The notes under the pieces: model-generated
The model's input: the letters and a program-made list of their open reading frames with translations, nothing else
Told to the model about the DNA's origin: nothing
The model's database searches: none
Made by a program: the position numbers and the translations under genes
Source of the DNA: Coprococcus phoceensis
GTDB taxonomy: Bacteria > Bacillota > Clostridia > Lachnospirales > Lachnospiraceae
Assembly: GCF_900104635.1 (NCBI RefSeq)
Contig: NZ_FNWC01000007.1
Coordinates: forward strand, 2,393,421-2,457,420
DNA length: 64,000 nt
Direction: 5' to 3'
Shown: piece after piece, positions 23,430 to 49,322 of the stretch
How the letters are laid out: the number at the start of each line of letters is the position of its first letter
Numbering within the stretch: position 1 is the stretch's first letter

Positions 23430-23753
23430 ATGGCAAAGAGAAAAAGAAATATACAAATTTTGTTTTGTGTTTCCCCGGAAGAAAAAAAGCTGATTCGCAG
23501 AAAGATGATTGAATCAAAAACAAAAAATATGGGAGCTTACCTTCGTAAAATGGCAATCGACGGTTACATCGTCAACACCGACACTACTCCGCTAAAGAAA
23601 CAGTATGAGGAAATGCACAAGATTGGCGTAAATATCAATCAGATTGCGAAAAAAGTAAACAGCACCGGAGATCTGTATCCGGAAGAAATGCAAGAATTGA
23701 AAGAGATGGTGAAAGAATTATGGCGTATCTTAAGATCTTCCCCATTAAAGTAA
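23430..23753 (+). CDS. MobC relaxosome accessory protein
   Basis: 107 residues with AAAGGAG upstream. NIQILFCVSPEEKKLIRRKM begins a ribbon-helix-helix, and MGAYLRKMAIDGYI plus IGVNINQIAKKVN are hallmarks of plasmid MobC proteins (IG-N-NQIA motif). It binds oriT and melts it for the relaxase. The relaxase start lies 34 bases inside this gene, so translation is coupled. It differs from the shorter RHH protein at 8389-8712, supporting two separate mobilizable elements. Confidence 0.9.
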   Translation: MAKRKRNIQILFCVSPEEKKLIRRKMIESKTKNMGAYLRKMAIDGYIVNTDTTPLKKQYEEMHKIGVNINQIAKKVNSTGDLYPEEMQELKEMVKELWRILRSSPLK

Positions 23754-25081
23754 CAGACAAGAAAGCTCTGGACTATATTACAAATCCAGATAAGACAGAT
23801 GAAAAACTGTTAGTTTCCAGTTTTGGCTGTTCCCCGGAAACTGCAGATCTTGAATTTTCTATGACAAGAGAAATGGCAAAAAAGAACGGTATGGATAAAG
23901 GTGATAACCTGGCATTTCATCTGATCCAGTCGTTCAAGCCTGGTGAGGTTGATGCAGAAACCGCCCATCGCTTAGGGCAGCAATTTGCAGACGAAGTACT
24001 AAAAGGAAAATATGAATATGTGATCAGCACCCATGTTGATAAAAATCACATTCATAACCATATCATCTTCAACGCTGCAAGTTTTGTTGATCATCACAAG
24101 TATGTTTCCAATAAGCGGAGCTACCATAAAATCTGCCGGATTAGTAATCGTATCTGCCATGAAAATGGTCTTGTCACCAGTATGCCAACCGGAGAAAAAG
24201 GTAAAAGCTATAAAGAGAACCTGGAATATCACCGTGGAACCAGCTGGAAAGCCAAACTGCGTGTTGCTGTAGATAAAGCTATCTGGTCTTCTATCAACTA
24301 TGAGGAATTTCTACAAAAGATGCAGTTAGCAGGATATGAAGTTCGACAGGGAAAACATCTGTCCTTCCGTGCACCGGAACAGAAAAACTTCACTTATATG
24401 AAATCTCTCGGAAGCTATTATTCGGAAGAAAATGTCCGTATCCGTCTGGTTAAAAATCGTAGCAAAGCGAAAGCTCCAAAGCATCTGTCCAGAGAAGCTC
24501 GCCTGTATATCAATATCTCCACGTATGTTACAACCGGCAATCGAGAAGGCTTTGAACGATGGGCAAAACTCAATAATCTGAAAGAGGCAGCCCGCACCTT
24601 CAACTATCTTTCCGAAAATAACCTGCTGAATTATGAAGATTTCCAGCAGCATCTTTCTGATGTTAATGCTTCTGTTAAAGCGGCTGAGCAGAGAATAACG
24701 CAAATCAACAATGATCTGAGCACGCAGAAAGTCATTCAGAAACACTGTGATTCTTACCGGCTCTGTCGTAAAGTGATTGAAGATTGCAAATCTGCTAAAA
24801 ATCCAAAAGCATACAGGACCAAACATCAGGCAGAATACCAACTCCACGATTCACTAAAAAAAGAGCTTCAGGATCTCGGTGTTACCAAAATCCCAAGCTC
24901 TAATAAAATCCAGAAGCAAATTGAAAATCTTGAATCTGAACAGGCTGCTACTATCCGGGAAAAACAGGAATTGCAGAAAAAGCAAAAGACACTGGAGATC
25001 ATTAGACAGAATTTCACCGCACTGCTCGATGCTCCCATATTTCGTGAATCTATTGAAAACAAACGAGAAAACAGCTTATAA
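23720..25081 (+). CDS. MobP-type relaxase/mobilization nuclease
   Basis: 453 residues. LAFHLIQSFKPGEVDAETAH followed by HVDKNHIHNHIIFNAASFVD carries the three-histidine metal site (near residues 113-127). The catalytic Tyr is expected in the first 30 residues (ALDYITNP). A coiled-coil C-terminus covers residues 320-440. It would nick at the repeats at 23.3-23.4 kb and pilot the strand through a host conjugation pore; no mating-pore genes lie next to it. Full length, no decay. It is the main mobility gene of the second element and lies close to its SOS-like switch. Confidence 0.92.
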   Translation: MAYLKIFPIKVTDKKALDYITNPDKTDEKLLVSSFGCSPETADLEFSMTREMAKKNGMDKGDNLAFHLIQSFKPGEVDAETAHRLGQQFADEVLKGKYEYVISTHVDKNHIHNHIIFNAASFVDHHKYVSNKRSYHKICRISNRICHENGLVTSMPTGEKGKSYKENLEYHRGTSWKAKLRVAVDKAIWSSINYEEFLQKMQLAGYEVRQGKHLSFRAPEQKNFTYMKSLGSYYSEENVRIRLVKNRSKAKAPKHLSREARLYINISTYVTTGNREGFERWAKLNNLKEAARTFNYLSENNLLNYEDFQQHLSDVNASVKAAEQRITQINNDLSTQKVIQKHCDSYRLCRKVIEDCKSAKNPKAYRTKHQAEYQLHDSLKKELQDLGVTKIPSSNKIQKQIENLESEQAATIREKQELQKKQKTLEIIRQNFTALLDAPIFRESIENKRENSL

Positions 25082-25086
25082 ATGTT

Positions 25087-25113
25087 TGAGGTGTCCTATA
25101 ATTTGACACCTCA
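25087..25113 (+). terminator. Hairpin after the relaxase gene
   Basis: Nine-base perfect arms TGAGGTGTC and GACACCTCA, six bases after the relaxase stop. No good U-run follows, so termination may be partial. Confidence 0.5.
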
Positions 25114-25282
25114 CTACATCTTGCCTGTCCTAATAGACTGAATAAGTTTTTGAATAAATCTCGATAATTTGCAGATGAATATTCACTCACTTTTTATCTA
25201 CTCTAACAAATTCTTGTTTTCTCCATTCATATATTTCAAAATAATCATTGATTCTTTCTTTTTCTAATTTATCAAAAAATCA

Positions 25283-25324
25283 AAACTATCATAAAGAATT
25301 TTAAATATTCTGCTATGATAGTTT
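25283..25324. repeat. Large hairpin in a gene-free stretch
   Basis: Arms AAACTATCATA and TATGATAGTTT with an inner AGAAT/ATTCT pair. It lies in the 340-base AT-rich gap 25082-25421 between the relaxase and the XRE membrane gene. It may mark the element end or be an att-related dyad. Nothing else coding is seen in this gap. Confidence 0.4.
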
Positions 25325-25421
25325 CGATTATGTTATCTACAGAGTACTATACAGTTAAACAAAAGTGTACCTCTTAACTCAAATTACATAGGCCTGCTTC
25401 CTTATTTGTTCGGTTTTTATA

Positions 25422-26138
25422 TTATAAATATGCAGCATCATAATATGTAACCATTTTGCATAAAATAGTCTCTATTGTATCTTTATATGTATTCAATACA
25501 GTATCATCATCTTTTGATAAATCATTGTATTCTATTGTTTTGTTAGTCGCTATCGTTCCTGTAATTTGATGATCCAAGCCATAGTCTATATTAAAAGTGT
25601 ATTGTTGCTCATCGTAATTCAAAAGAATATTACAAGAGAACTTCTCATTTCTATATGTTGAAGTAATCTGTTGAAGATTAAATCCGAATTTCATAAATGG
25701 TAATTTTTGATTTGGCAACTCATATATTATATCTTCATCGTACAGCACATAGAGTCCATTTTCCAACTCAAATCCCAAACTTTTAACATTAGAAACAAAG
25801 CCTTCCTCTTTTCTCACTGCATTTATTTTCCAAATCCCCAAAACAGCTACATAAACACATCCTATAATACAGAAAATCGGTAATATTCTTTTTAAAGTAC
25901 GAAAAATTTTTTGTGTCATATCTATTTTGCTTACAAATTTATGATCCTCATTTAATAATGAATCCAGAGAGAAATTATATGTATTACAAATAGTTATGAT
26001 CAGCTGTAAATCAGGCATACTTTTTTCATTTTCCCAACTTGAAACAGTCTGCCTTGTGACACCAAATTTATTAGCATACTCCTCTTGCGTCATATTATTA
26101 TCTTGCCTTGTTTTCTTAATCATTTCTGCTATGGTCAT
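25422..26138 (-). CDS. XRE regulator with transmembrane segment
   Basis: 238 residues. HTH_3 at 1-60 (IKKTRQDNNMTQEEYANKFG, SSWENEKSMPDLQLIITIC), one membrane span near 84-106 (ILPIFCIIGCVYVAVLGIW), and an external domain of about 130 residues with no family I know. Membrane-tethered XRE proteins of this shape may sense an outside signal and act on nearby promoters. It converges on the relaxase and is transcribed away from the transposase remnant. It could control the bacteriocin-like genes 2 kb away, but no operator is visible. Confidence 0.82.
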   Translation of the reverse strand: MTIAEMIKKTRQDNNMTQEEYANKFGVTRQTVSSWENEKSMPDLQLIITICNTYNFSLDSLLNEDHKFVSKIDMTQKIFRTLKRILPIFCIIGCVYVAVLGIWKINAVRKEEGFVSNVKSLGFELENGLYVLYDEDIIYELPNQKLPFMKFGFNLQQITSTYRNEKFSCNILLNYDEQQYTFNIDYGLDHQITGTIATNKTIEYNDLSKDDDTVLNTYKDTIETILCKMVTYYDAAYL

Positions 26139-26332
26139 TGAACTTGTTTTTTTACCTCCCGTTAATTATCATAATCTCTCGGAATCTTTAGCTCAGTAAA
26201 ATCAAGGCTTGCAGATTCCTTTTTTATTAAAATCCCCTACTTTTTTGTCCAAAAAGTCTTGACAAATCGCTCAAAATTTGCAGCGAAGCCGATTGAATAT
26301 ATTTTATTTTCATCGACTGGAGGGCGATTTTT

Positions 26333-27632
26333 ATGTTACCTGTTAATTCCGGCGGTCATACCGCCTATCAAACTTTTGTACTCGAAAACCTTCGTAAATA
26401 TTATCCGGATCCCACTGTTTTTGCTAAATCAACATGGGACATCATCGAACGTTTTTGGAATCTCGATCTTTCTTATACCGATGAACTGCTCCGCGGCAAA
26501 TACTCTGTCTTTGGTCCAAAACCAAGGACTCCTTCCTGTATGCAACGTTCTTATCTTCTTTCCATTGATTTTAAAGTCCATTTCCTTACCGATTGGGCTG
26601 CTCAATTGAAGATAAATCCACTCTATGCAATCCTCAGCGGATTCCAGTTTGGTGATACTCCCGGTGTCGGCACTTTCTATGACTTCCTTGACAGGCTTTA
26701 GGATTCTGATTCTGATAATCTTTCTCCTCATATCCATCCTATAAAAAAGAAGAAGGTCAAAAAAAACAAAACAAAAAGGCGATAAGGCAGAACCCATTGG
26801 AAAAGTCACAGTTGAACAACTTTTCCAATCTATGGAACATTCTTCTTTTTCCATAGATGAACAGCCTTATGCTTCTCTTTTCAAGATTTATGATCATGAA
26901 TTTTTATCGATCTCCATATCCAAAGGATTGATTGATATCTCCAATCTTTCCATTGCCGGCGATGGAATGCCTGTTACAACATCTGCACGCGAACGGAAGC
27001 ACCGTATTTGCAAATGTTCCAAAAGTGGAATTACTTCCTGCCATTGTGACTGTTACTTTTCCCAGCCTGACTGTGACATCGGTTATGATTCTTCTAGAGA
27101 ATGCTTTTACCATGGCTACCACTTATATATATTGGTTGCAGCGAACTCAGAAAGCGACCTGCCTTTATTTCCTTTATTCAATCCTGCATCAAAGCATGAT
27201 TCTCATGGGTTTTTGGAAGCTTTTACCATTGGAAAAGATGGTGTCCCTATCTGCAAAGCAGGACGAAAAATGAATCATGGCGGTTCTGAGCCTTCAAAGA
27301 CACGGTTAAAATTCCGTTGTCCGCTTGCCAGCCGTAAATACGGATGTTCTTGTAGCACTCCCTACTCAGACTCCAAATATGGGAGAACCGTTCATCTTGC
27401 AATGAAAGATAATCCAAGACTGATCAATTTTCCGCCTCGTGACAGTGAAGAATGGAAACTGGAATACAATGCCAGGACTTCGGCTGAACATTCGAATAAA
27501 CGTGAGAAAATAGACTTTCAATTAGAAAGCGGCAGAGACACCGCTCAACTAAGATGTGGTACTGCCGCCTGTATCACATCCTCATGCTTCAGCATTTGGA
27601 TGTCTGGAATTTGCCCTTTGAATCCACCCTAG
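26333..27632 (+). pseudogene. DDE transposase, broken by stop and frameshift
   Basis: The first part encodes 122 residues (YQTFVLENLRKYYPDPTVFA) and ends at TAG 26699-26701, where the following in-frame text DSDSDNLSPH suggests a former Trp codon. A frameshift in the A-rich run near 26760-26780 then moves the frame to the second part (GDKAEPIGKVTVEQLFQ to the stop at 27632). The second part keeps AGDGMPV and SKHDSHGF, likely the first two catalytic acids of a DDE transposase. At least two lesions make it inactive. The terminal repeats of the insertion sequence were not found, and its family is not assigned with confidence. Confidence 0.75.
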
Positions 27633-27783
27633 CAAAGTTGATTTTAAATGTGGCATAATCCTTTGATCATTATACACTATTTTTCAGGCATGGCGACAGT
27701 TATGTCTATTTTCCATGTTCTTTTTTCTGTTTCGAATCATATTTACTTTTCAAAGTACACATTTCGGCTGTTACCGATAATAA

Positions 27784-29916
27784 TCACTCAGGATTCCGAG
27801 AAATTATTATCTGATTATATTCTAAATTATTTTCTAATAAATGTGAATGCTTATTTTTATGTAGCTTTCCAGTGCTATCAATAAATAAAACTATATCATT
27901 ATCATTTAACAGATTTGTGTTATGCGAAATAATTATACATGTTTGTTCCAAGAGTTTTTTTCTTATATAATCTATTATAAGATTCTCACTTTCAAAATCC
28001 AAATGACAGGTTGCCTCGTCAAATATATATATTGGAACATTTCGCATCATAGCTCTAGCAAGAGCAACCCGCTGTTTTTCACCACCGGACAAATTAGTGC
28101 CATTCTCCGATAAATAGCTATCTAAACTAAGAGATCTGGAACTCATCATTTGACTAATTCCCATTGCCTCAATAACTTCATCGAATAATAGTTGGTTACA
28201 ATCCTTTTCCCACATTAAAATATTTTCTTGAATTGAACCTGAAAATATTTCGGATTCCTGAGATAAATATAGGACTTGTTTTGATAAATCAGAAATGTTT
28301 AAATTTCTGTCATTCCCCCATACGATTTCCCCTTTATTATATTTTACCAATCCAGCGATTGTTTTTGCTAATGTTGATTTTCCGCACCCACTAGAGCCCA
28401 TCAAAAAAACTTTTTCACCTGCTTCTATGGTAAAAGAAATATTTTTTAATATAGGAACATCATAGCCATATGCAATATCCAAGTTATCTACACATATTTT
28501 TCCACTAATTTCATTATTGCTTTCTGAAATTTCTGTAGATTTATTATATGCAAATATATCTTCTATTCTACGGAACGTAAGTATTGTTTCTTGCAAAGAT
28601 GGTAGAATGCCAAGTAAATTTTTAACCGGAGATAGGAAAAAGCCTATAAAACTTTCAAATGCAAGTAGCGTACCTAACGACATATTACCTGCAATAACTG
28701 AATAAATTCCATATGCTAAGATTATCAACATAACCATATGTTCTATTGCCCTTAAAGTTTCCCCTAAAATTATGGATAATTTGCTTAAAATATACTCTTG
28801 ATTTTTTACAAATTTGATTTCCTTTCTCATTTTCTTCATATAATTGCTGTTTTCAAAACTCTTTAAAGACATTAAATTCTCGATTGTTTCTTTTATGTGT
28901 GTTATTAACAAAGATTCTTTGTCCATAATAGTTTTACTTAATTTAAAGAGTTTTTGTTTAGAAATAACAAATGAAATTATATAAGCAGCAACTATAACCA
29001 AGACCAAATAGAACATAATAGGACTAATACCTATTAAAATAATTGCTCCGGCAATCAAAGAAATACATTCCAAAACTACAAAAGAAAATACGGAGGACAT
29101 GGTTTCAACAACTACAGATAATCTATAATATCTATCCAGAACACCTCCACTTGTATAATCGTCCTTTTTTTGAATAGAAATATTTAATAATGATTCCACA
29201 AATTGATTTTGAAGTGTAATTTCCAGCTCCATTTTTAAGTAAGCAATAAGTTTTCCTTTTACTATAGACAAGATACTTACAAGTAAATAGCATCCCCCCA
29301 TCACTATAAAAAAAGATTTTAATTGTGGTGTAAATGTCGGAATGCCTATTTCAATTTGATCAATTATATTCTTATATAAAAAGGTTGTAATTACACTAAT
29401 TGCCATAAGTATAACCGAAAATATCACTAATAAAGCAAGGAGCTTTTTCTGTTGAAATAGAGCTGTCCAACATACTGACTTTTTAGGTAGCACCACTCTA
29501 TCTATTTCTAAAATCTCCGTAATAATTATAGCATAACTTGACCATATTAAATCAAAATATTCTTTTGTAATAATACGTTTTCCTTTATTCGGATCCCATA
29601 AAAAAACCTTACTATTATTTGTCTTATACAGTACGACATAGTGATATTCATCATCTTCATTTATCATAATAATAATAGGCTTTTTCTCTTCAGATAATAA
29701 AGAATACAACTCTATATTAGTGCCTTCAACCGCCAACGATTTCATTCCGATAGTACGAAACACTTCTGTTATTCCGTATAGGCTTAATCCATCATTACCA
29801 AGAAATATATTTTTTCTGAGTGCTGTTTCATCGACACAAATTTTTAAAAACTTGCATATAGTTAATATACACGCTAATCCACAATCATTTTCATCATGTT
29901 GTAAACAACCTCTCAT
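27784..29916 (-). CDS. C39-peptidase ABC exporter for double-glycine-type peptides
   Basis: 710 residues from ATG 29916, after GAAGGA; the open frame continues upstream but overlaps the precursor gene. The C39 protease domain has QHDENDCGLACI with Cys12, His92 in EYHYVVL and Asp108 in LWDPNKG. Six membrane helices lie at 155-450. The ATPase has Walker A MGSSGCGKST (506-515), signature LSGGEKQR (609-616) and IFDEATCHLD (631-640). The enzyme cuts leaders after GG/GA/AG and exports the mature peptide. Two small genes with such leaders sit directly upstream on the same strand, separated by a perfect 19-bp hairpin. No lanthionine, radical-SAM or other modification gene is present, so an unmodified bacteriocin or peptide signal is expected. 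Confidence 0.93.
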   Translation of the reverse strand: MRGCLQHDENDCGLACILTICKFLKICVDETALRKNIFLGNDGLSLYGITEVFRTIGMKSLAVEGTNIELYSLLSEEKKPIIIMINEDDEYHYVVLYKTNNSKVFLWDPNKGKRIITKEYFDLIWSSYAIIITEILEIDRVVLPKKSVCWTALFQQKKLLALLVIFSVILMAISVITTFLYKNIIDQIEIGIPTFTPQLKSFFIVMGGCYLLVSILSIVKGKLIAYLKMELEITLQNQFVESLLNISIQKKDDYTSGGVLDRYYRLSVVVETMSSVFSFVVLECISLIAGAIILIGISPIMFYLVLVIVAAYIISFVISKQKLFKLSKTIMDKESLLITHIKETIENLMSLKSFENSNYMKKMRKEIKFVKNQEYILSKLSIILGETLRAIEHMVMLIILAYGIYSVIAGNMSLGTLLAFESFIGFFLSPVKNLLGILPSLQETILTFRRIEDIFAYNKSTEISESNNEISGKICVDNLDIAYGYDVPILKNISFTIEAGEKVFLMGSSGCGKSTLAKTIAGLVKYNKGEIVWGNDRNLNISDLSKQVLYLSQESEIFSGSIQENILMWEKDCNQLLFDEVIEAMGISQMMSSRSLSLDSYLSENGTNLSGGEKQRVALARAMMRNVPIYIFDEATCHLDFESENLIIDYIRKKLLEQTCIIISHNTNLLNDNDIVLFIDSTGKLHKNKHSHLLENNLEYNQIIISRNPE

Positions 29917-29934
29917 ATTACTTTCCTTCTTTCT

Positions 29935-29975
29935 AAATACAGAGAGGGTTGGAATATCCAACCCTCTCTGTATTT
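29935..29975 (-). terminator. Perfect 19-bp hairpin between precursors and exporter
   Basis: Arms AAATACAGAGAGGGTTGGA and its exact complement with a 3-base loop. It sits 12 bases after the stop of precursor 1 and 18 bases before the exporter start, and only three U follow the stem. This is best read as an attenuator that lets a minority of transcripts continue into the exporter, or as an mRNA processing and stability element. Either gives an excess of precursor over exporter. Confidence 0.7.
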
Positions 29976-29986
29976 GCTTATTGCGG

Positions 29987-30196
29987 TTACTGACAACTAC
30001 TCTTTTCACAGTAGAACACGCTAACCTTATCTGCATGAGCTGGATATTTCGCTACATGAGCATCAGCTGCTTCTCCGGCTGCTGCATAAGAACTATATGC
30101 TTTACTTGTAAAATTAGCCCAATCTCTACAGATCCAATGATAGTGTCCCTTGCCCGCTCTAATTTCCTGTGCTTTCTCAACTGTTAATGCTTTCAT
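29987..30196 (-). CDS. Bacteriocin-like precursor peptide 1
   Basis: 69 residues, ATG 30196 with AAAGGAG eight bases upstream. The 15-residue leader ALTVEKAQEIRAG has Leu at -12, Ile at -4 and Ala-Gly at -2/-1, a short form of the double-glycine leader cut by C39 peptidases. The predicted core (54 residues) starts KGHYHWIC and has Cys23, Cys63 and Cys68 plus His18, 20, 47 and 54. Precursor 2 shares about 25 positions, including HW-x-C, NF-x-SK-x-Y, AD-x-H and KY..H..KV. I know no named bacteriocin with this pattern. The C/H spacing looks like a zinc-binding or disulphide fold. Confidence 0.75.
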   Translation of the reverse strand: MKALTVEKAQEIRAGKGHYHWICRDWANFTSKAYSSYAAAGEAADAHVAKYPAHADKVSVFYCEKSSCQ

Positions 30197-30319
30197 ACCT
30201 TTGTCTCCTTTCTTCGAAGTTTGATACGTACAACTATTACACCTTCAAGATAAACTATTTTCCATAATTACTCAAGCAAATACACCCTTACATCCATGTC
30301 AAATAGGCTTTACATCCGC

Positions 30320-30532
30320 TTATTCCCCACATTTTCTATGACAAGTAAGGATAAATACTTTCTTTTTATGATTCCTATATTTATCTCTATGCCTATCCGC
30401 AACTTTACCTACTTCTGATAGGCTGCAGTAATATGGCTTACTGATAAAGTTAAGTTTGTCAAAACATACCCAATGAAAATGAGCATTACCTGCTCGAAGT
30501 TCTCTTGCTTTCTCTGTGCTTATAACTTTCAT
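30320..30532 (-). CDS. Bacteriocin-like precursor peptide 2
   Basis: 70 residues, ATG 30532 seven bases after GGGAGG. The leader VISTEKARELRAG mirrors that of precursor 1 (Ile -12, Leu -4, Ala-Gly end). The core starts NAHFHWVC and is strongly basic at its end (HRDKYRNHKKKV). It has four Cys (23, 36, 64, 68) where precursor 1 has three. Two different but related cores made from one operon suggest either a two-peptide bacteriocin or two variants. It is promoter-proximal, with dyads of the type ACA-N-TGT upstream. Confidence 0.72.
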   Translation of the reverse strand: MKVISTEKARELRAGNAHFHWVCFDKLNFISKPYYCSLSEVGKVADRHRDKYRNHKKKVFILTCHRKCGE

Positions 30533-30608
30533 ATGATTACCTCCCTTAAAAATATTTTTATTAATTTAAATATAACCCCCGCACTAAAATAGAGAAAGAA
30601 AAACCTTC

Positions 30609-30655
30609 TTTACATTATGTAAAATCACTCTTTTATTCTTATTATCTACAATGTA
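30609..30655. promoter_or_regulatory. Control region between precursor genes and ABC operon, with two dyads
   Basis: TTTACATTATGTAAA (30609-30623) and TACA-A-TGTA (30647-30655) lie in the 187-base divergent promoter region. They share ACAnTGT-like halves and may be one regulator's sites controlling both directions. No dedicated regulator or kinase gene lies next to the cluster. Confidence 0.45.
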
Positions 30656-30719
30656 AATACTTCTTTGCTTTACTTTTTATGCTTTTCGCCATCATAATAT
30701 AGTCAAAGGAGGGAGTTAT

Positions 30720-31577
30720 ATGATATTAAAACTTATGATTGTAGAAATCAAACGGTATCTAAGATCTTTATATTATCTGGTCGTACTATTTATTCTATTT
30801 TTGATTCACATGCTTGGCCTAAAAGGAGGTGTGCCATTTTTATTTTGGGGAGATGATTTTTTAGAGAATGTAAATTTTATCTGTATAGTTCTTTCCCTTT
30901 TAATGTCAGTCTATATTTGTAATGAGTTTTCTTATGGTACAGTACAAAATAAACTTTATTTAGGGTACAAAAAAAACCAAATTTATATAGCGGAAGTAAT
31001 TGCTTGCAGCGTATGTGGAAGCAGCCTTGTATTACTTGATTCTTTATTTTATCTATTAGGTTGCCTTCTTAGGAAACAGGAACTTACTCATTCATTCTCA
31101 TATATTATGACTAATACTCTGATTTTTATGATTACAATTGGTTCTGTTTCTGTTATTATTTGTAGTTTTAGTTTACTTGCGAAGAAACGTTTGATAACGC
31201 AGTTCTTACTTGTATTCTTTGCCATATTTCTTATAAATAGTGGTCGAAAAACCCTTGCTACATTAACAGACTACGAAAGTGTATTTGTAGAAATAAATGA
31301 GGAAAACGATCCTGCGTCAAAAGATTTAATAGAAAGTTTTACAGAAGAACTAAACGCTACTTATCGGACACAATTAAATATGAAGATTACCTTATCCCCA
31401 TATGCTCAATGTAACTTTTCTTCATATATAACTACAGAACGGCCAGAGGATAAGCCAAAACAATCATTTTTATTTAAAAATCGTGACTATCATATAGACT
31501 TTGTGATTGCTGATGTCATTCTTTCACTGTTCATCATTTTAGTAAGTGTAAATATATTTAAAAAGCAAAATATTTAA
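30720..31577 (+). CDS. ABC-2-type permease A (candidate immunity)
   Basis: 285 residues with AAAGGAGG upstream. Six hydrophobic segments (YYLVVLFILFLIHMLGL, ICIVLSLLMSVYICNEF and others) with the large external loop before the last helix typical of LanE/G-like and bacitracin-type permeases. EFSYGTVQNKLYLGYKKNQI is a variant of the family EFxxGTxxxkl signature. It is the first gene of a permease-ATPase-permease operon divergent from the precursor peptides. Such transporters expel peptide from the producer's membrane. It is clearly paralogous to permease B; the near-common text before the last helix is SPYAQ-N. Confidence 0.8.
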   Translation: MILKLMIVEIKRYLRSLYYLVVLFILFLIHMLGLKGGVPFLFWGDDFLENVNFICIVLSLLMSVYICNEFSYGTVQNKLYLGYKKNQIYIAEVIACSVCGSSLVLLDSLFYLLGCLLRKQELTHSFSYIMTNTLIFMITIGSVSVIICSFSLLAKKRLITQFLLVFFAIFLINSGRKTLATLTDYESVFVEINEENDPASKDLIESFTEELNATYRTQLNMKITLSPYAQCNFSSYITTERPEDKPKQSFLFKNRDYHIDFVIADVILSLFIILVSVNIFKKQNI

Positions 31578-31589
31578 AGGAGGAGCCTT

Positions 31590-32261
31590 ATGAATTACAT
31601 TGTAACAACAACCAATATTACAAAACAATACAAGGATACAACTGCATTGAATAACGTATCTGTTCATATTCCTAGAGGTTCTATTTACGGATTAGTCGGG
31701 AATAATGGTGCTGGAAAAACAACTCTTATGAGACTATTATTAGGATTACAAAACCCTACCTCTGGTCAGATAAAAATCGCTGACAACATAAAAACGGGAG
31801 CTATATTAGAAACTCCTGCAGTATATCCGTATTGGTCTGCCAAACGAAACTTGAAATATCAGCTATCCTTGATAAAAAATCCAAAGTACAGTGTTTCTGA
31901 ATTACTTAAAATAGTAGGATTAAAAGATACACGTAAACCACTTATACAGTATTCCCTTGGTATGAAACAACGTTTAGGGCTTGCATTAGCTCTTGCTAAT
32001 CAACCGGATTTATTATTCCTTGATGAACCATTAAATGGCTTAGATCCTTCCGGGATACGTCAAATTAGAAATTTAATTAAAGCCTTGAGTGAAGACCACG
32101 GAGTAACTATAGTAATTTCAAGTCATATTCTTGATGAATTACAAAAAATTGTCACTCATATAGGATTTCTGAAAGACGGAATTTTAATTCATGAATGTAA
32201 AAATAGTGAAATAACAGAAGAATCATTAGAAGAATTCTATTTCGATGAATTTGAACAGTAA
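31590..32261 (+). CDS. ABC transporter ATPase (candidate immunity)
   Basis: 223 residues. Walker A is VGNNGAGKTTLMR (36-48), the signature is SLGMKQRLGLALAL, and Walker B is LLFLDEPLNGLDPSG. The short size and C-terminus fit the bacitracin/lantibiotic-type ATPases (BcrA/LanF). The gene is 12 bases after permease A and overlaps the region upstream of permease B; AAGGAGG for permease B lies right after its stop. Together with two different permeases it would form a heterodimeric exporter. Confidence 0.92.
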   Translation: MNYIVTTTNITKQYKDTTALNNVSVHIPRGSIYGLVGNNGAGKTTLMRLLLGLQNPTSGQIKIADNIKTGAILETPAVYPYWSAKRNLKYQLSLIKNPKYSVSELLKIVGLKDTRKPLIQYSLGMKQRLGLALALANQPDLLFLDEPLNGLDPSGIRQIRNLIKALSEDHGVTIVISSHILDELQKIVTHIGFLKDGILIHECKNSEITEESLEEFYFDEFEQ

Positions 32262-32274
32262 GGAGGAATGGTTC

Positions 32275-33117
32275 ATGAATAAATTATTACGTGTCGAATT
32301 ATCACGAAGACTAACTTCTATAATATACATTGGTGAAATTATACTATTATTAGTTTATAATTTTTTAGAGATATCTGGATCAACGTATGGTTTTGAAGTT
32401 AATATACCATATTTCCTTTTTAATAAAACTACATTAATATGTATATTTATTTCAATAAATGTGTCTCTAAAACTTAGTCAAGAGTTAGACAATAGAACTA
32501 TTAACAACAAATTATTTTGTGGTTATAATAAATCGACATTTTACAAAACAGAACTCCTCGTTGGAATCATAGAAGGAACACTTTTGCTCTTAGCTGATAC
32601 AATATCAGTAATATTACTTGGAATATTCCAGAATTATGAGTTAAATATATCTTACATTGATTTATTTATTAATTTTATAATAGCCCTTATAATCATCTCA
32701 ACTGTGGCAATAATTTCAACAATACTCTCCGTTCTAATAAATAATAGAATTTTTTCTATATTTATTGTAATCGGTTTAACCCTTCTGCTTTTATATGGTG
32801 GAAAAGAAACAGTGCATACTCTAAATCAGCCAGTACAAACCACTCTATTTAGTATCGATGGGGAATTACGAGATAATCCGCTTTATGCTGAGGGCGCAGA
32901 GAGAACCATACACAATATACATCTATTTTCTTCTCCATATGCACAAGCAAATTATGTGCCTTATTTGCTGCATGAAGAAAAACAAGAAAAGTTTGATAAT
33001 TCATTGATTCTAAAGAACAGTCCTTATCACCTGGAATTTCTAATAACTGATATATTAGGAGGGATATTTTTATATCTCCTAGGAAGTTATTTATTTAATA
33101 AACGCAATCTACAATGA
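32275..33117 (+). CDS. ABC-2-type permease B (candidate immunity)
   Basis: 280 residues from ATG 32275, eight bases after AAGGAGG; a reading from 32245 would overlap the ATPase and lacks a site. It has six membrane segments and the external loop SSPYAQANYVPYLLHEE that aligns with the loop of permease A. Its codon use is very AT-rich, like the rest of the cluster. The operon ends at the border to decayed element DNA, since only eight or so bases separate its stop from the fragment of an XRE gene. The cluster therefore seems to be a separate insertion. Confidence 0.8.
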   Translation: MNKLLRVELSRRLTSIIYIGEIILLLVYNFLEISGSTYGFEVNIPYFLFNKTTLICIFISINVSLKLSQELDNRTINNKLFCGYNKSTFYKTELLVGIIEGTLLLLADTISVILLGIFQNYELNISYIDLFINFIIALIIISTVAIISTILSVLINNRIFSIFIVIGLTLLLLYGGKETVHTLNQPVQTTLFSIDGELRDNPLYAEGAERTIHNIHLFSSPYAQANYVPYLLHEEKQEKFDNSLILKNSPYHLEFLITDILGGIFLYLLGSYLFNKRNLQ

Positions 33118-33436
33118 GATTGCACATTTTAAATTTGCAAAATCAGAATATTGGACACAAGCCTATGTTGCGGAATTAGTAGACCGTGACTCCCATACCA
33201 TTATGAATATTGAGAACAAAGGTCAATATCCCAGCTTCAACCTTTTTGTTAAACTCATTACTATGTTTGACGTTTCAGTTGACCAGTTTATTCATGCGGA
33301 CGGAGGGGCAAGGTCAAGCTCTTGCAGAAAGCACATTGATGTGCTTCTGAACTCCATGAATGAAAAAGAGCTTGTCGTGATAGAAGCCACAGCCGAAGGC
33401 ATTAAGAAAGCCAGAGAAACGGAGGTTCCAGAATAA
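33118..33436 (+). pseudogene. XRE-family regulator, 5' truncated
   Basis: The frame reads without a start right after the permease: AHFKFAKSEYWTQAYVAELV, then DSHTIMNIENKGQYPSFNLF and a C-terminus ending KKARETEVPE. This is the XRE regulator that faces the relaxase in Tn1549-like conjugative elements. The first 10-15 residues, with the start codon, are gone. It opens the scrap region and shows where the bacteriocin cluster joined older element DNA. Confidence 0.7.
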
Positions 33437-33605
33437 GAGCCTCTGTTTTTTTGCGCCATTTTAGGGGCTGCCGCTAAGTGGCAAGCAATGCCTCTGTGGC
33501 CACAAGTGGCACAAAGGCGGCTTGTTGGGGCTCGCCCCAAACCCGTATCTTCAGGCCAACATGGTCCGAAGTGTCAGCGTCGCTTTGCTCCTTGTTTTCA
33601 TAATC

Positions 33606-33770
33606 TCAACGCTCCTTTTCCTGCTTTCTTCCCGGTTCAGTGTAGCCCATCAAAGTGTCAATGTTCGCCTTGATCGTGACGATCTCCTGCATATCCCATC
33701 GTGCCTTTTGATATTCCCCATAGAACTGTTTTTTCTTTGCTGTAAGCTTACGGCCTTCTTCCTTCAGCAC
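33606..33770 (-). pseudogene. Relaxase C-terminal fragment (Tn1549-type)
   Basis: About 54 residues in frame to TGA 33606: LKEEGRKLTAKKKQFYGEYQ, ARWDMQEIVTIKANIDTLMG, GRKQEKER. This is the end of the Tn1549/CTn-type relaxase, lying as expected opposite the XRE gene. The nuclease domain is missing. At its left junction (about 33771) it is joined to the start of an IS30-type transposase. Confidence 0.65.
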
Positions 33771-33853
33771 ATCTCAGTAAATGAAGCTCGTTCTCTTAAG
33801 CAAACTTCTATTGTGGCTCTTTCATCAAGAACCAGATGTACATTCTTAGCCAT
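33771..33853 (-). pseudogene. IS30-family transposase, N-terminal 27 codons only
   Basis: ATG 33853 starts AKNVHLVLDERATIEVCLRE, the opening HTH of IS30-type transposases, then runs into relaxase DNA and stops. Upstream (33854-34125) I see only AT-rich DNA with a direct repeat TTGCAA(C/T)ACTAA near 33925 and 33951. This looks like an insertion-sequence-mediated deletion joint. Confidence 0.55.
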
Positions 33854-34125
33854 GGTATTCTCCTTGGATAACGCCATCCGGACTCTATTGCAGAGCCACA
33901 ACTATAACTAGATATCAAGAGGTTTGCAACACTAACTTCTATGATATATTTTGCAATACTAAGTGCCAGTTTTTGAATAGACTGGAATTTAATTTTCCAA
34001 TTCACCAATTATCGAGATATCCAATACCTCTTCCGCCTGCCGTTCATTATAACATTCACTCCATATTTACGCATAAAAAAGGATGCAGGGATTGACTCCC
34101 TACACCCTTCATTAGAATTATAATG

Positions 34126-44765: not shown

Positions 44766-45575
44766 TTATTCACCTCCTTGATGCGCCTGTGTGCTAACAT
44801 AGTTATCATTATAATTATCCCCACTTTTTTTGTCAATAGTTTTTTCTATAAATTTGAAAATTAAATCTGCTATATTTCTCCAATCCGGATCAAGCATCAT
44901 ATCATGACATACACTATCTACAATCTTCAACTCCGCGGTGTGTATTTTAGCATTGTCTTTAACTGCCTGCAGAATTACACATTGGTCATTATATGATCCA
45001 ATTACCAGGGTTGGAATTTTTCTAACATATATAGAGAATTTTTTTTGACGTTTCATCATGGCATACTCAACCTTTTTTGACTCTTTATCTAATAATGACA
45101 TATAGTATTCTTTTTGTTCTGAATCTAACCTTTCTGAAAAAAGAATATACTCCAAATTATTTTTTCTCTGCTTTTTACTCATCTGTAGTAATTGTAAAAA
45201 ATTATTTCTTACTGGCATTGGTGTAATTAAAACAACTGACTGTATTGAAGAGTATATTTCTTCCAAGCACATCTGTGCGATTCTGCATCCCAATGAATGT
45301 GCTATCAAGATAATTTTTCCATCAATTATATCTATAGTCTTTATTAGATCTTCTACCATATCCTTGACTACTATCTGATCAACATTTTCTATTCTTTCAC
45401 TGTTACCGTGATTTCTAAAGCTCATAGCATAAACATTATATCCATGAGCATAAAAAAACGGTATGAAATGTTCTTCCCAACACCATGCTGCATGATATGC
45501 TCCATGCACAAATAAAATGGTATTCTTATTTAACAGACTTACTTTTTTTATAATTTCCAATTGCATAACAAGCAT
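44766..45575 (-). CDS. Alpha/beta hydrolase
   Basis: 269 residues from ATG 45575, which overlaps the stop of the methyltransferase remnant (TAATG); ATG 45566 is also possible. Motifs: FVHGAYHAAWCWEEH (oxyanion region), AHSLGCRIAQMC with the Ser nucleophile, and DSVCHDMMLDPDW with the catalytic His. The acid is probably Asp in IGSYNDQCV. In metallophore loci such enzymes act as editing thioesterases or open the chelate; a similar but truncated gene lies at 37015. It is intact and probably translated with the TetR gene. Confidence 0.8.
   Translation of the reverse strand: MLVMQLEIIKKVSLLNKNTILFVHGAYHAAWCWEEHFIPFFYAHGYNVYAMSFRNHGNSERIENVDQIVVKDMVEDLIKTIDIIDGKIILIAHSLGCRIAQMCLEEIYSSIQSVVLITPMPVRNNFLQLLQMSKKQRKNNLEYILFSERLDSEQKEYYMSLLDKESKKVEYAMMKRQKKFSIYVRKIPTLVIGSYNDQCVILQAVKDNAKIHTAELKIVDSVCHDMMLDPDWRNIADLIFKFIEKTIDKKSGDNYNDNYVSTQAHQGGE
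44789..44799 (+). promoter_or_regulatory. GTGTGCTAACA repeat, copy 2
   Basis: It lies 24 bases upstream of the TetR start, within the 3' end of the hydrolase gene, and matches the copy at 44085-44095. Confidence 0.45.
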
Positions 45576-45832
45576 TACTCCTTTGTACAATAAAAAAGTT
45601 TCTGTCCCAAAACCTCCAAATATTCACCATATCCTGGAAACTCTTCACTATTACAAAACCCATTTTCTTCAAGAATCTCCAGCCATTGTTTTCTATTCAG
45701 AAACATGGTATTTGTCGCTTTTCTCTGATCCTTTGGTTCTGTCATCATAAAAGACTGCGTTATGAGGATATCCGGAACATCCTCTACAGTTTCTATGATA
45801 AGTAAAATTCCACCTGGTTTCATTACACTATT
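45575..45832 (-). pseudogene. NRPS-type methyltransferase domain, C-terminal remnant
   Basis: About 82 residues starting inside the fold: MKPGGILLIIETVEDVP is the strand-4 KPGG motif of class I methyltransferases as found in NRPS/PKS, and FLNRKQWLEILEENGFCNSE the following helix. The SAM-binding half is lost. It is joined at about 45825-45832 to the start half of the aryl-acid ligase. A TAATG at the joint makes it look like a small gene, but no ribosome site is present. Confidence 0.7.
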
Positions 45833-46206
45833 TCGGCTACAACGTACGCTGTCGGCTTGGCCAGTGCTATGATCCCCTCTAATTCTGCTTCCCTGTGAGC
45901 CGGCAGCATCATGATCGGTACAGTCCTAATCTTCGCAAGGGCAAAGAGAACCGCGACAAAAGAGATTCTGTTCGGCATCTGCACAAGTACCTTATCATCT
46001 TTGCAGATACCTTTCTCCATAAAATACTGTCCTATGCAGATTGCTTTCTGATTCAGTTCCAAATAGGTAATTTTCTTTTCACTGTCTGTAACTGCAATCT
46101 CGTCTCCATATTGCACTGCTCATTTATCAAGCTACTTTCACAGGCTTAACTTCTCACAGCCTTCCAGATCTTCATATTGTTCCATATTCTTTTTATAGCC
46201 TGCCAT
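45823..46206 (-). pseudogene. Aryl-acid AMP ligase (DhbE/YbtE-like), N-terminal remnant with three stops
   Basis: From ATG 46206 (nine bases after GGAAGG in the PPTase end) the frame reads MAGYKKNMEQYEDLEGCEKL, then TGA, TAG and TGA within 10 codons, then AVQYGDEIAVTDSEKKITYL and VQMPNRISFVAVLFALAKIR, MMLPAHREAELEG. PAHR is typical of 2,3-dihydroxybenzoate/salicylate ligases. It breaks off near residue 125, before the ATP-binding loop. Multiple stops plus truncation mean no activity. The gene once activated the aryl cap of a siderophore. Confidence 0.8.
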
Positions 46207-46212
46207 TTTGTA

Positions 46213-46899
46213 TTACCTTCCTTTCCCCTGCACCGCTGCATATGCGGCATAATCTTTTATCAGAATCGGATATAATTTCCATCCAGATTTTATCTTTCCT
46301 TTTTCTATAATCTTGTTTTCCCTGACAGAAAAGAAGTCCATTCCCTTGTTCAAACCGATACCCAGCGCTTTGAGATGCGCCTCTCTTGCTGCCCAGTACT
46401 GATAGAACCGTTCAGGGCTTTCTGTTTCCTGAATTTCTGCCGCTTCTTCTTCCGTAAAGAAATTTTTGGCAATCTCCATATATTCTGAGATCTCTCCCAT
46501 TTCCTGCACATCAATTCCCACAGCCTGTCGGCTGGCAAATATTGCCAGCACCCATTCTCCGGAATGGGAAAGGTTAAATGTGATCTTCCTTTGTCCCGGC
46601 GGTGCCTTCCAGTACAATTTCCCGTATTTTCCCTGTCTTAAAACAATCTTATCCTCACCTGAATACTCTTTCAAAAACATTCTCACAGCAATCTTTCCTG
46701 CAAGATAACGCATTTTATCTTCATGAAAACGGTAATGTTTCGCCTTCTGGCATTCTTCCTTTTCTAAAATAGGTTTATACCTATTCCAAAAGGTTTCCAG
46801 TTCTCTCCACCGAAGTTTCCAGATGTGTACCTCTACTGTATGCAGTTCCAGCTTTCCCATATTCAAAAGTTCCCGGTTTCCGTATAATTCAATTTTCAT
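46213..46899 (-). CDS. Sfp-type 4'-phosphopantetheinyl transferase
   Basis: About 228 residues; ATG 46899 overlaps the thioesterase end (ATG 46860 is an alternative). Motifs: YGKLYWKAPPGQRKITFNLS, HSGEWVLAIFASRQAVGIDV with the metal-binding Asp, FFTEEEAAEI, and YWAAREAHLKALG, where the usual WxxKEA has Arg for Lys. It would charge carrier domains of the NRPS with phosphopantetheine. The NRPS itself is gone, but the enzyme looks intact and could serve other carriers. It sits between the type II thioesterase and the ligase remnant in one operon. Confidence 0.9.
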   Translation of the reverse strand: MKIELYGNRELLNMGKLELHTVEVHIWKLRWRELETFWNRYKPILEKEECQKAKHYRFHEDKMRYLAGKIAVRMFLKEYSGEDKIVLRQGKYGKLYWKAPPGQRKITFNLSHSGEWVLAIFASRQAVGIDVQEMGEISEYMEIAKNFFTEEEAAEIQETESPERFYQYWAAREAHLKALGIGLNKGMDFFSVRENKIIEKGKIKSGWKLYPILIKDYAAYAAVQGKGR

Positions 46900-47635
46900 C
46901 CGGAACACCCAGAAGGCATTTCTGTACTTCTGACAGAACAGCTTCTTCCTGTTCCCGAATGTAAAAGTGCCCGCCTTCGAACATATGGCAGTGGAACGCC
47001 CCTTCTGTATATTTCCCCCACTCTTTCATTGCTGCTTCATCTGCTTCCCGGTCATTCCGTCCTCCAAACGCCTCAATCGGACTGCGTAAAGTGATAAGAT
47101 CTTTATCATAATACGTTTCATCCATTGTAAAATCAGCTCGCAGCATAGGCAGAAAGAAATCCAAAAGTTCCTGGTTTTCCAGTATCTCCTTTGGCGTTCC
47201 TTCAAATCTGCCGAGTACCTTTTTAAATTCGTCATCTGGAAGATGATAGATTGGATTGGGTTCTGGAATACTTGGGATACGACTTCCTGATACCATGAAG
47301 CATCGGGCTGTCTTTCCTCTTTTTTCCATTCTTTTTTCTAACTCATAGGCAATCTTTCCGCCCATGCTATGTCCCCAGAATGCATACGGTCCTCTTATGT
47401 TTTCCCATATAGTTTCCTCCAATTCATCTAACATATCCGTCATATTATGATACGGCTTTTCCATAATCCTTTCTTCCCTGCCCGGTAGCTGGATCGGACA
47501 AACAGTTATGGTATCTTTCATTTTTTGAACCCAAGAATTGTATGCGGAAGCCCCGCCGCCAGCAAAAGGGAAACAAAATAATGTTATATTTTGGGAGTTA
47601 ATATTCTCACCGTTTTTCAAAAGCCTTTGATTCAT
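46889..47635 (-). CDS. Type II thioesterase (NRPS editing)
   Basis: 248 residues from ATG 47635, seven bases after GGAGGAGG; it overlaps the acetyltransferase stop by four bases. [20 protein letters not shown] is the N-terminal signature, [17 protein letters not shown] holds Ser of [16 protein letters not shown] the acid and [12 protein letters not shown] the catalytic His. Such GrsT/YbtT-type enzymes remove wrong groups from carrier domains. It is complete, although its assembly line is missing. It links the locus firmly to non-ribosomal peptide synthesis. Confidence 0.92.
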
Positions 47636-48458
47636 GTTAATCCTCCTCCAGAAATCGGTTGTAATTTCATCTCCATAAAATCTGAAAATATCTTTGTTGA
47701 AGGTGATACAGATTGCGTTACCCATGCGTTTCCACCAATAATAGAATTTTTTCCAATCACTGTATTGCCTCCTAAGATTGTAGCTCCCGCATAAATTGTT
47801 ACATTATCTTCAACAGTAGGATGCCGTTTCAACCATTTCTGTTTATGACCTCCGCGAGTTGACAAAGCTCCCAAAGTCACACCCTGATATATTTTTACAT
47901 GATTCCCAATAACAGCAGTTTCTCCGATTACAACTCCTGTTCCATGATCAATGAAGAAGCTCTCTCCAATTTCTGCTCCTGGATGGATATCTATTCCTGT
48001 TATTGAATGTGCGTACTCTGTCATAATTCTTGGTAAAATAGGAACTTTCAATTTATACAGACAATTAGCTGTCCTTTGAATAAGTATTGCCAAAGGACCT
48101 GGATAAGCCGCTATGATTTCCTCATAACTCTTCGCAGCCGGATCACCTCATATGCCGCTTTCATATCTGATATTACCAACTGCTGCAGATAGGGCAGCAT
48201 TGCTCGAAATTTTCTCATCACTTCCTCTGTTCCCCTATCTTCATCTAAAAAATCCAAATGCTTTTTTAAAACCTCTTGAATCATCTGGATCGTATATCTT
48301 TCGTTCTTTTCCACATTTGACCAATATTCTATATAGAAAAATTTTCTTAACAAATAGACAAATTCCTGAGTCCATTTATTATCCAAAGATTTTTCTAAAA
48401 CTTCCTTAATTTGAAATATATCATTATCGTTTCCCAGTAGTTTTTTATTATCTATCAA
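47632..48458 (-). pseudogene. Serine O-acetyltransferase (EpsC/CysE type), frameshifted
   Basis: First part from TTG 48458 (AAAGGA seven bases upstream) ends [19 protein letters not shown] missing base near 48145-48148 explains this: adding one restores [20 protein letters not shown] and leads straight into [20 protein letters not shown]. The catalytic part is complete: [40 protein letters not shown] (left-handed beta helix) and [12 protein letters not shown]. It would supply O-acetylserine for cysteine, the thiazoline building block. The second part alone has no start signal, so activity is doubtful. Confidence 0.82.
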
Positions 48459-48470
48459 TCTTTCATCCTT

Positions 48471-49067
48471 TCATAAGTTAGTAATTCCTAACTTGTTTCC
48501 AAAAAAATTTTGGCTTTTGCCTAATATCAGTCCACTTGCTAAAATTATATGAGCCACTGCAATCCCTTTAGCAACTATCAAAATTCCGATATCACCAAAA
48601 CAGAAAGCCAATACACATTCTATAATTAACAATTTTCTTGCAGATTTCCCATAAACCTTTCTTTCTTTTTCATCCAATCTTTTGTGTCCAGTGTCTACTG
48701 GAGACAATAAAAATATAACAGCAATAGCAATGAGCCATACTATACAGAATGTAATCCCAAGCTCCGAATTAATTGCTAAATATTTTCCACAAATAAAAAT
48801 CAGGAAACCGGAAACACAAATGCAGCTTACAGATCTTTTCAAATGAATTCCGCCAACGTACTGTCTTAAAATAACAAATGGCAGTAAAAAGCTGAACATC
48901 TCTAACCAGTTTCCCGTTATGATACCCAATGCAATAATAATAGAATATATAAGGATTCTGCTTAACAGCAGTCGATAAGCATATTCATACAAACTGCGTT
49001 CTTCTTCTTTAAGAATCCCCCATCGGCTTTGTAAATTATACAGCCAGTCTATCACTTTCTTCTGCAT
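48471..49067 (-). CDS. agrB: AgrB-family autoinducer peptide protease
   Basis: 198 residues. The catalytic His and Cys are in PFVILRQYVGGIHLKRSVSC, the hallmark of AgrB. Membrane segments surround it (ILIYSIIIALGIITG, GITFCIVWLIAIAVIFLLS). It cuts the AgrD precursor at its C-terminus and forms the thiolactone. Its ATG shares bases with the agrD stop (TAATG). The last codons contain the GTTAG-N6-CTAAC dyad that also lies upstream of the acetyltransferase start. It appears fully intact. Confidence 0.92.
   Translation of the reverse strand: MQKKVIDWLYNLQSRWGILKEEERSLYEYAYRLLLSRILIYSIIIALGIITGNWLEMFSFLLPFVILRQYVGGIHLKRSVSCICVSGFLIFICGKYLAINSELGITFCIVWLIAIAVIFLLSPVDTGHKRLDEKERKVYGKSARKLLIIECVLAFCFGDIGILIVAKGIAVAHIILASGLILGKSQNFFGNKLGITNL
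48477..48492. promoter_or_regulatory. Operator GTTAG-N6-CTAAC, copy 2 (biosynthesis operon)
   Basis: GTTAGTAATTCCTAAC, extended by one more base pair on each side to AAGTTAG/CTAACTT, 19 bases upstream of the acetyltransferase start and inside the end of agrB. Same half-sites and spacing as copies at 44027 and 51375. Confidence 0.55.
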
Positions 49068-49222
49068 TAAAATTTCCTCAGTCTTTTAACCTCGTCCGGT
49101 TCTTCTTCTTGAAAATATAACCAATTGCAAGCAAGATTCGCTGAACGCATCGTCAGCCTGAGCGCCAAAGCATTGATTCCTTCTAATATTTTAGTTGTCA
49201 TTACATTTAATATTTTTTCCAT
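49067..49222 (-). CDS. agrD: AgrD cyclic-lactone autoinducer precursor
   Basis: 51 residues, ATG 49222 with AAAGGAGG nine bases before. The amphipathic N-terminal leader (MEKILNVMTTKILEGINAL), the core region SANLACNWLYF with a single Cys34, and the acidic tail QEEEPDEVKRLRKF fit AgrD exactly. The mature signal is probably a thiolactone from Cys34 to Tyr38 or Phe39, with a short N-terminal tail of unknown length. It lies between agrC and agrB on the same strand, overlapping agrB by a base. Confidence 0.88.
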   Translation of the reverse strand: MEKILNVMTTKILEGINALALRLTMRSANLACNWLYFQEEEPDEVKRLRKF

Positions 49223-49256
49223 ATCAATTTGCCTCCTTTTTTTCGTGATTCTACTA

Positions 49257-49314
49257 AAAAATCGCCCCTATTTCAATTATCCCGGCTAAAATGGTAATTT
49301 TTTGGGCGATTTTT
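49257..49314 (-). promoter_or_regulatory. Inverted repeat between agrC and agrD
   Basis: Arms AAAAATCGCCC (49257-49267) and GGGCGATTTTT (49304-49314) 36 bases apart. The U-rich end on the minus strand could make it an attenuator that sets agrD/agrB against agrCA, or the arms may be AgrA sites for an agrDB promoter. The 100-base gap contains no other feature. Confidence 0.45.
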
Positions 49315-49322
49315 GCATTCTT

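Follow-up and report, generated by a model that had tools for sequence, protein, structure and literature searches.

Two small, related genes of Coprococcus phoceensis lie upstream of a gene for a C39 peptidase-containing ATP-binding cassette (ABC) exporter, with a permease-ATPase-permease operon running in the opposite direction. They belong to the 64,000-nucleotide stretch of DNA analysed here (the window; RefSeq assembly GCF_900104635.1, contig NZ_FNWC01000007.1, positions 2,393,421 to 2,457,420 of the forward strand). What do these genes make, how would a producer withstand it, and is the arrangement a two-peptide bacteriocin system, as an initial annotation had proposed? With moderate confidence, we favour a compact, mobile cassette of bacteriocin-like type: its peptides would be unmodified and C39-exported, self-protection would be LanFEG-like, and a dedicated regulator would control it. 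The probable products are one or two folded His/Cys-rich peptides, which the cassette would also export and confer protection against; their most likely use is attack on bacteria living nearby. With a C39 exporter and a LanFEG-like pump together and no modification enzyme, the simplest interpretation is an unmodified bacteriocin-like product. Gene content, catalytic residues, linkage, motifs and a conserved DNA element can be regarded as established at the sequence level.

Conservation of the cassette

The full cassette was found at two places beyond the window, in Lachnospira sp. UBA2821 (G402; locus L020), which has two peptides (G402a and G402b), and in Lachnospiraceae bacterium AC2012 (G324; locus L021), which has one. 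The order is the same at all three loci: permease 2, ATPase and permease 1, then, divergently, the peptide gene or genes, the exporter and a regulator with a helix-turn-helix (HTH) domain and a transmembrane (TM) segment. All six protein types co-occur at each of the three peptide-bearing loci, so that the link between the peptides and C39 genes, for which a profile search had been suggested, holds in every case. Identities between loci are 29-49% for the peptides, 42-52% for the exporters, 28-40% for permease 1, 29-40% for permease 2, 34-44% for the regulators and 65-71% for the ATPases. Gene content, orientation and a 22-bp DNA element were kept although the proteins are 28-71% identical between loci. 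Because three divergent loci retain every part, the peptide family, as judged from these alignments, is not a chance match of open reading frames (ORFs). The regulator, the 22-bp element and an insertion sequence (IS)-like insertion between exporter and regulator were absent from the initial annotation.

The peptides are rare. Among 392 genomes of the order, one genuine relative besides the window's own was found (G324), and a three-sequence profile brought in G402, with its two peptides, from 397 genomes of the family. No further peptide was detected in 398 genomes of the phylum or in sets of 61, 61 and 10 relatives; the rarity estimate covers 1320 genome look-ups, some genomes being repeated. 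Scanning 84,980 species genomes by pattern, within the limits of the two patterns used, returned two loci, those of UBA2821 and AC2012. Searches of plasmids and phages with P2 (tblastn) and four scans of viral contigs with the peptides gave no match; the viral contigs were additionally scanned with the exporter. Weak partial matches were dropped (E 2.8e-4 to 0.0082, a range that also covers the outer-domain search described below), several of them with stops or lying within long frames. They accounted for three of the five matching genomes in the order set, two of five with the family profile, five of six in the phylum, and one of two and one of three in two of the sets of relatives. For one of these weak matches, L015, the ORF list was read and shows no such peptide.

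The start of contig C48 of another genome (G416; L031 1-956) carries the end of an ATPase, recognised by eye, and a permease 2 sharing 37.5% identity with its G324 counterpart. This piece is a probable truncated fourth cassette; the G416 assembly, which is 88% complete, has no close exporter (best E 3.6e-37) and no 22-bp element. The main text of a survey of rumen bacteriocins (PMC13289728) does not mention AC2012, and a literature search on AC2012 gave nothing fitting among the matches listed.

Features of the cassette, with positions counted from the first nucleotide of the window.
Feature	Position	Strand	Description
HTH (XRE-type) regulator	25422-26138	-	238 aa; HTH in residues 7-60, TM segment in 85-103; predicted outer part of about 135 residues
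IS-like remnant	26168-27810		between exporter and regulator; 24-nt inverted repeats, 83%
C39 peptidase-containing ABC exporter	27784-29916	-	710 aa; Pfam Peptidase_C39, ABC_membrane and ABC_tran
19-bp hairpin	29935-29975	-	between P1 and exporter; without U-run
Precursor P1	29987-30196	-	69 aa; leader MKALTVEKAQEIRAG and 54-aa core; ORF with homologues in two further genera
22-bp conserved element	30296-30317	-	GGATGTAAAG-N5-TTGACAT; between P2 and P1; proposed operator of the regulator
Precursor P2	30320-30532	-	70 aa; leader MKVISTEKARELRAG and 55-aa core; ORF
Palindrome	30609-30623		TTTACATTATGTAAA; divergent promoter region; half-sites as in the 22-bp element
ABC-2-type permease 1	30720-31577	+	285 aa; six hydrophobic segments; Pfam match below cut-off
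ABC ATPase	31590-32261	+	best NCBIfam model TIGR03740, lantibiotic protection ATPase
ABC-2-type permease 2	32275-33117	+	280 aa; ABC2_membrane_2, E 3.3e-4, below cut-off

Exporter and precursors

The exporter starts at the ATG at 29916, the mechanical ORF beginning farther upstream at 30036. Its closest solved relative is 4ry2, an ABC-type bacteriocin transporter (249.5 bits). Cys12, His92 and Asp108, which had been singled out at the outset as an intact catalytic set, align with the Cys, His and Asp of the 4ry2 peptidase domain and are invariant across the three cassette exporters. With its three domains and these catalytic residues, the protein belongs with the C39 peptidase-containing ABC exporters (PCAT/AMS). 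It is 52% identical to its homologue in G402 and 46% identical to that in G324, and the next-best exporter among 116 genomes is 29% identical. All exporter matches in plasmids were below 60% identity, the eight that were listed lying at 28-29%. A separate cluster in another genome (G026, L055 794-3714) has two GG-leader peptides followed by a C39 exporter 29% identical to that of the window, and looks like an ordinary class II-like cluster.

P1 and P2 are related, as had been claimed, with 45% identity across 66 residues (E 1e-21 for the pair). The sequences AGGAG, for P1, and GGAGG, for P2, lie immediately 5′ of the start codons. The hydrophobic leader positions described for the two genes, -12 (L/I/V) and -4 (I/L/V), are hydrophobic in all five precursors of the family. 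In pairwise scores G402a goes best with P1, and the G324 peptide and G402b go best with P2; the best partner of P1 itself is P2 (65.9 bits), narrowly ahead of G402a (63.2). This pattern among the five precursors suggests two peptide types, type 1 (P1, G402a) and type 2 (P2, G402b, G324 peptide). No modification gene lies beside the peptides, which upholds the initial annotation on this point. A lanthionine synthetase gene is likewise absent from the cassette genes of the three loci, the flanks having been viewed as ORF lists and no search having covered the remainder of each genome.

A predicted mini-protein core

The full-length alignment of the five precursors has invariant columns (P1 numbering) at M1, H20, W21, C23, S31, Y34, H47, Y51, H54, C63 and C68. 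Ten of them fall in the core, and His or Cys occupies six of these ten. Every precursor has three conserved Cys, an odd count that rules out complete pairing of these inside a single molecule; a fourth Cys, in P2, is not conserved. Cores are 52-58 residues long and basic, with a net charge of +1 to +10 when K, R, D and E are counted.

Structure prediction for the P2 core gave a strand at residues 3-8, short strands, helices at 23-36 and 38-43 and a final strand at 44-49, with a predicted local distance difference test (pLDDT) of 88.6 and a predicted template modelling score (pTM) of 0.70; the five models span pLDDT 70.4 to 88.6. The model of full-length P1 has the same elements (pLDDT 78.5). 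These models, backed by five sequences only, predict that the core is a soluble β-β-α-β mini-protein. The predicted fold gave no significant structural match and no significant relative in the PDB.

Comparison with family libraries agrees with the earlier view that the core lies outside the known classes. All five peptides stay below the curated cut-offs of Pfam and NCBIfam, none reaches E 0.001 against PHROGs, and P1 and P2 have no match in PADLOC. Weaker matches were judged to be chance: an SHQ1-like CS domain (E 0.017), phrog_10214 (E 0.0085), gingipain chains in the PDB (E 0.41) and DUF7609 (E 0.025), whose model stays below its cut-off in 14 of 14 control genomes and in the peptides' own genome. 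Systems in which a C39-exported peptide is combined with ABC self-protection are already known. On these comparisons the precursor family appears to be new: the family, its His/Cys pattern, its predicted fold and the outer domain of the regulator are unmatched above cut-off or significance in the libraries used and, among the matches listed, in the open-licence literature.

The divergent operon

The permease-ATPase-permease operon of immunity type that had been described next to the peptides is indeed present at 30720-33117. TIGR03740 is the best NCBIfam model of the ATPase at all three loci (220 bits in the window, 212 in G324 and 215 in G402), and the window ATPase is 70-71% identical to the other two. 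Permease 1 has homologues at the same position in G402 and G324 (40% and 39% identity), and permease 2 is 27% identical to permease 1. One ATPase and two distinct permeases near peptide genes give the composition of LanFEG pumps, which, in the part of PMC4239024 consulted, combine a single ATPase with two permeases that differ from each other, serve mostly for self-immunity of the producer and are typically regulated jointly with the peptide genes. The operon differs from LanFEG in its permease-ATPase-permease order, in an ATPase below the cut-off, in permeases that go unrecognised and in lacking a LanI-like or lanthionine-enzyme gene in the cassette.

Nineteen further relatives of permease 1 were found in the family (L032-L050; the L048 match is partial), with neighbouring ATPases 44.8-50.2% identical to that of the window; seven of these loci also match permease 2, weakly. 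They were set aside as cassettes: the five read by ORF differ in layout, with one permease seen in about 3.3 kb, and four of these five have a 304-residue ATPase.

Regulator and proposed operator

The HTH of the regulator is Pfam HTH_3 (E 1.1e-13), and its TM segment was called by hydropathy. A homologue lies immediately after the exporter on the same strand in G324 and G402, while the IS-like remnant separates the two genes in the window. The protein resembles membrane-tethered one-component regulators in having an N-terminal HTH, a single TM segment and an outer domain; it differs from them in its XRE-type HTH, in an outer domain without a match above the cut-off in Pfam or NCBIfam, and in being encoded within a peptide-export cassette. 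Matches of the regulator in PADLOC and NCBIfam (e.g. RmrA, RstR) were not retained, being confined to the HTH part. A search for the outer domain in 200 sampled genomes of the family left two genuine matches, the window's own genome and G402, after three of the five matching genomes had been dropped as weak partial matches; G324 carries the domain and was presumably not sampled. A literature search on this type of regulator gave nothing fitting among the matches listed.

Each locus has one copy of the 22-bp element, with identical spacing (L020 7247-7268 and L021 9414-9435 outside the window). It lies 5′ of G402a in L020 and between peptide and exporter in L021. In 80 chosen genomes, searched with one mismatch allowed, the exact element occurs solely in the three cassette carriers; as these carriers defined the pattern, only the lack of a match in the remaining 77 counts as an independent result. 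The reversed control pattern gave three matches in the 80 genomes. A one-mismatch copy elsewhere in the genome of the window (L093, G000:C7:1120669-1120690) lies close to genes that, by eye, resemble those for acyl carriers and AMP-binding proteins; it does not exceed the control rate, may be chance and was not accepted as a real operator. The exact element was also met in 10 viral stretches, treated as chance matches since these are 1.6-13.6 kb pieces without peptide or exporter signature. The half-site TTKACAT occurs 11 times on either strand in 992 bp of cassette intergenic DNA, compared with 0.73 ± 0.85 in 2000 first-order Markov simulations (maximum 5, none reaching 11). The palindrome of the divergent promoter region has a near copy in G402, and we propose that the 22-bp element and the palindrome are binding sites of the regulator.

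The hairpin between P1 and the exporter folds with -32.2 kcal/mol (z -8.0), and none of 200 shuffled sequences did equally well. It is not present at the matching place of G324, and the corresponding interval in G402 is only some 20 bp long. It may be a site of mRNA processing or attenuation, perhaps setting the ratio of peptide to exporter. Rfam gave no match within 25000-34000.

A model for the system and points against it

The favoured bacteriocin-like reading can be put as follows. One operon would encode the precursors, the exporter and, originally, the regulator. The C39 domain would cut the 15-residue leader after AG or GG during export of the core. The unmodified core would fold outside, its invariant Cys and His holding the β-β-α-β mini-protein by way of a bound metal, a disulphide or both, and would act on related bacteria at the envelope. 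The divergent pump would clear the core from the producer's own membrane. On the outside, the HTH protein would respond to the peptide or to envelope stress, and it would control both operons through TTKACAT/ATGTMAA half-sites. In favour of this reading are the joint recurrence of all six protein types, the intact catalytic residues, the distance of the exporter from others, the hydrophobic -12 and -4 positions, the GG of the G324 leader, TIGR03740 as best model of the ATPases, the 22-bp element and the number of half-sites.

By analogy, the cassette is like those of unmodified class II bacteriocins with C39/PCAT export (PCAT1, PDB 4ry2) in its short leader, its C39-ABC exporter beside the peptide genes and the lack of an adjoining modification enzyme, cleavage being presumed here. 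The window precursors differ from these in falling below the Pfam and NCBIfam cut-offs, in their predicted folded α/β core with invariant His and Cys, and in their mostly AG dipeptide and small residue at -7.

Several observations weigh against the bacteriocin-like reading. The cores are hydrophilic (grand average of hydropathy -0.5 to -0.95) and without a hydrophobic segment, and typical pore-forming class II peptides differ from such cores. Leader position -7 is A, T or S in the five precursors, and PCAT1 substrates carry Leu at both -12 and -7 in the consulted part of PMC6959990. AG-type leaders, which the initial annotation had reported while naming loss of the AG position as a sign against its proposal, occur in three of the five precursors, P1 and P2 among them; the G324 peptide has GG, and the description fails for G402b, whose leader terminates in AT. 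AG itself lies outside the cut motifs GG/GA/GS given in the portion of PMC6363468 consulted. As position -7 and the cut dipeptide depart from published substrates, the leader is, on alignment, a variant of the published C39-substrate leader. All three ATPases stay under the TIGR03740 cut-off of 309.75, and no LanE- or LanG-type NCBIfam model is matched by the permeases examined (both of the window, permease 2 of G402 and G324). The count of half-sites is not an independent test, since the motif had first been noticed in the DNA that was counted and the three loci are relatives of one another. Finally, a sigma-70 scan of the region found one promoter-like site where 3.2 were expected.

A more far-reaching form of this reading is tentative, and we hold it as possible rather than probable. 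The peptides would found a new antibacterial class of unmodified, C39-exported α/β mini-proteins, held by metal or disulphide and bearing an invariant HW-x-C...H...H...C...C pattern. Dedicated immunity would be LanFEG-like, and a membrane-tethered HTH protein would detect the peptide once secreted and drive the two operons by way of the conserved 22-bp element.

Alternative functions

The mini-proteins could instead act as pheromones that the regulator perceives with its outer domain, with the ABC operon as output or detoxification, which we consider unlikely. The position of the regulator after the exporter in G402 and G324, the rarity of its outer domain in the sampled family genomes and the conserved element adjoining the peptide genes speak for signalling, and C39 exporters also have quorum peptides among their cargo, as stated in the consulted part of PMC6363468. 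However, a signal would not need a three-part LanFEG-like pump, and pheromone and bacteriocin roles can coexist. Moreover, pheromones are usually smaller than folded cores of 52-58 residues.

Still less likely, in our estimate, is a metal-binding secreted peptide that scavenges or delivers zinc, or a metal-loaded toxin, in which the His/Cys set would be the working part. This would suit the share of His and Cys among the invariant core positions and the odd number of conserved Cys. However, no solute-binding protein or uptake permease is found among the cassette genes of the three loci, and the core has no significant sequence or structure match to any zinc protein, the weak DUF7609 match being chance-like. 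No paper on zinc-binding or histidine-rich bacteriocins was found in the open-licence literature. Signalling and metal handling may overlap.

A strict two-peptide bacteriocin of class IIb type, with both partners required, is highly improbable: two small adjacent precursors occur at two of the three loci, the window and G402 each carrying two different peptides of which G402a pairs best with P1 and G402b with P2, but the partners are homologous, the cores lack a hydrophobic segment and are not modelled as helical amphiphiles, and the complete cassette of G324 has a single peptide gene, which disfavours this mechanism and weakens the two-peptide label of the initial annotation.

Probable mobility and neighbouring genes

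The inverted repeats of the IS-like remnant lie at 26168-26191 and 27787-27810. Its broken frames appear transposase-like by eye, and they matched no Pfam family. Because the right repeat overlaps the final codons of the exporter and the resulting tail, ISRNPE, is unlike the tails of homologues, the insertion probably replaced a few C-terminal residues of the exporter. Besides this remnant, no further large non-overlapping ORF lies inside the cassette. A gene for a MobA/VirD2-type relaxase (PF03432, 126.8 bits; 23430-25081, + strand), with a small upstream partner ORF, adjoins the cassette and suggests a mobilisable element.

Elsewhere in the window, an agr-type locus (48474-51360, - strand) comprises AgrB (PF04647, 102 bits), a GHKL-type kinase (HATPase_c_5) and an ORF at 50626-51360 that looks response-regulator-like by eye from its N-terminal sequence. 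Beside it, at 44769-47725 (- strand), are a thioesterase, a 4′-phosphopantetheinyl transferase, a short AMP-binding fragment and an alpha/beta hydrolase, pieces of a carrier-protein pathway that are possibly a degraded biosynthetic cluster.

Implications

If the peptides are antibacterial, they would represent a folded His/Cys mini-protein scaffold that escapes family-based genome mining, because no curated model used here recognises them. The cassette would also offer a small model for the coupling of peptide production to self-protection by a one-protein, membrane-tethered regulator with a proposed operator.

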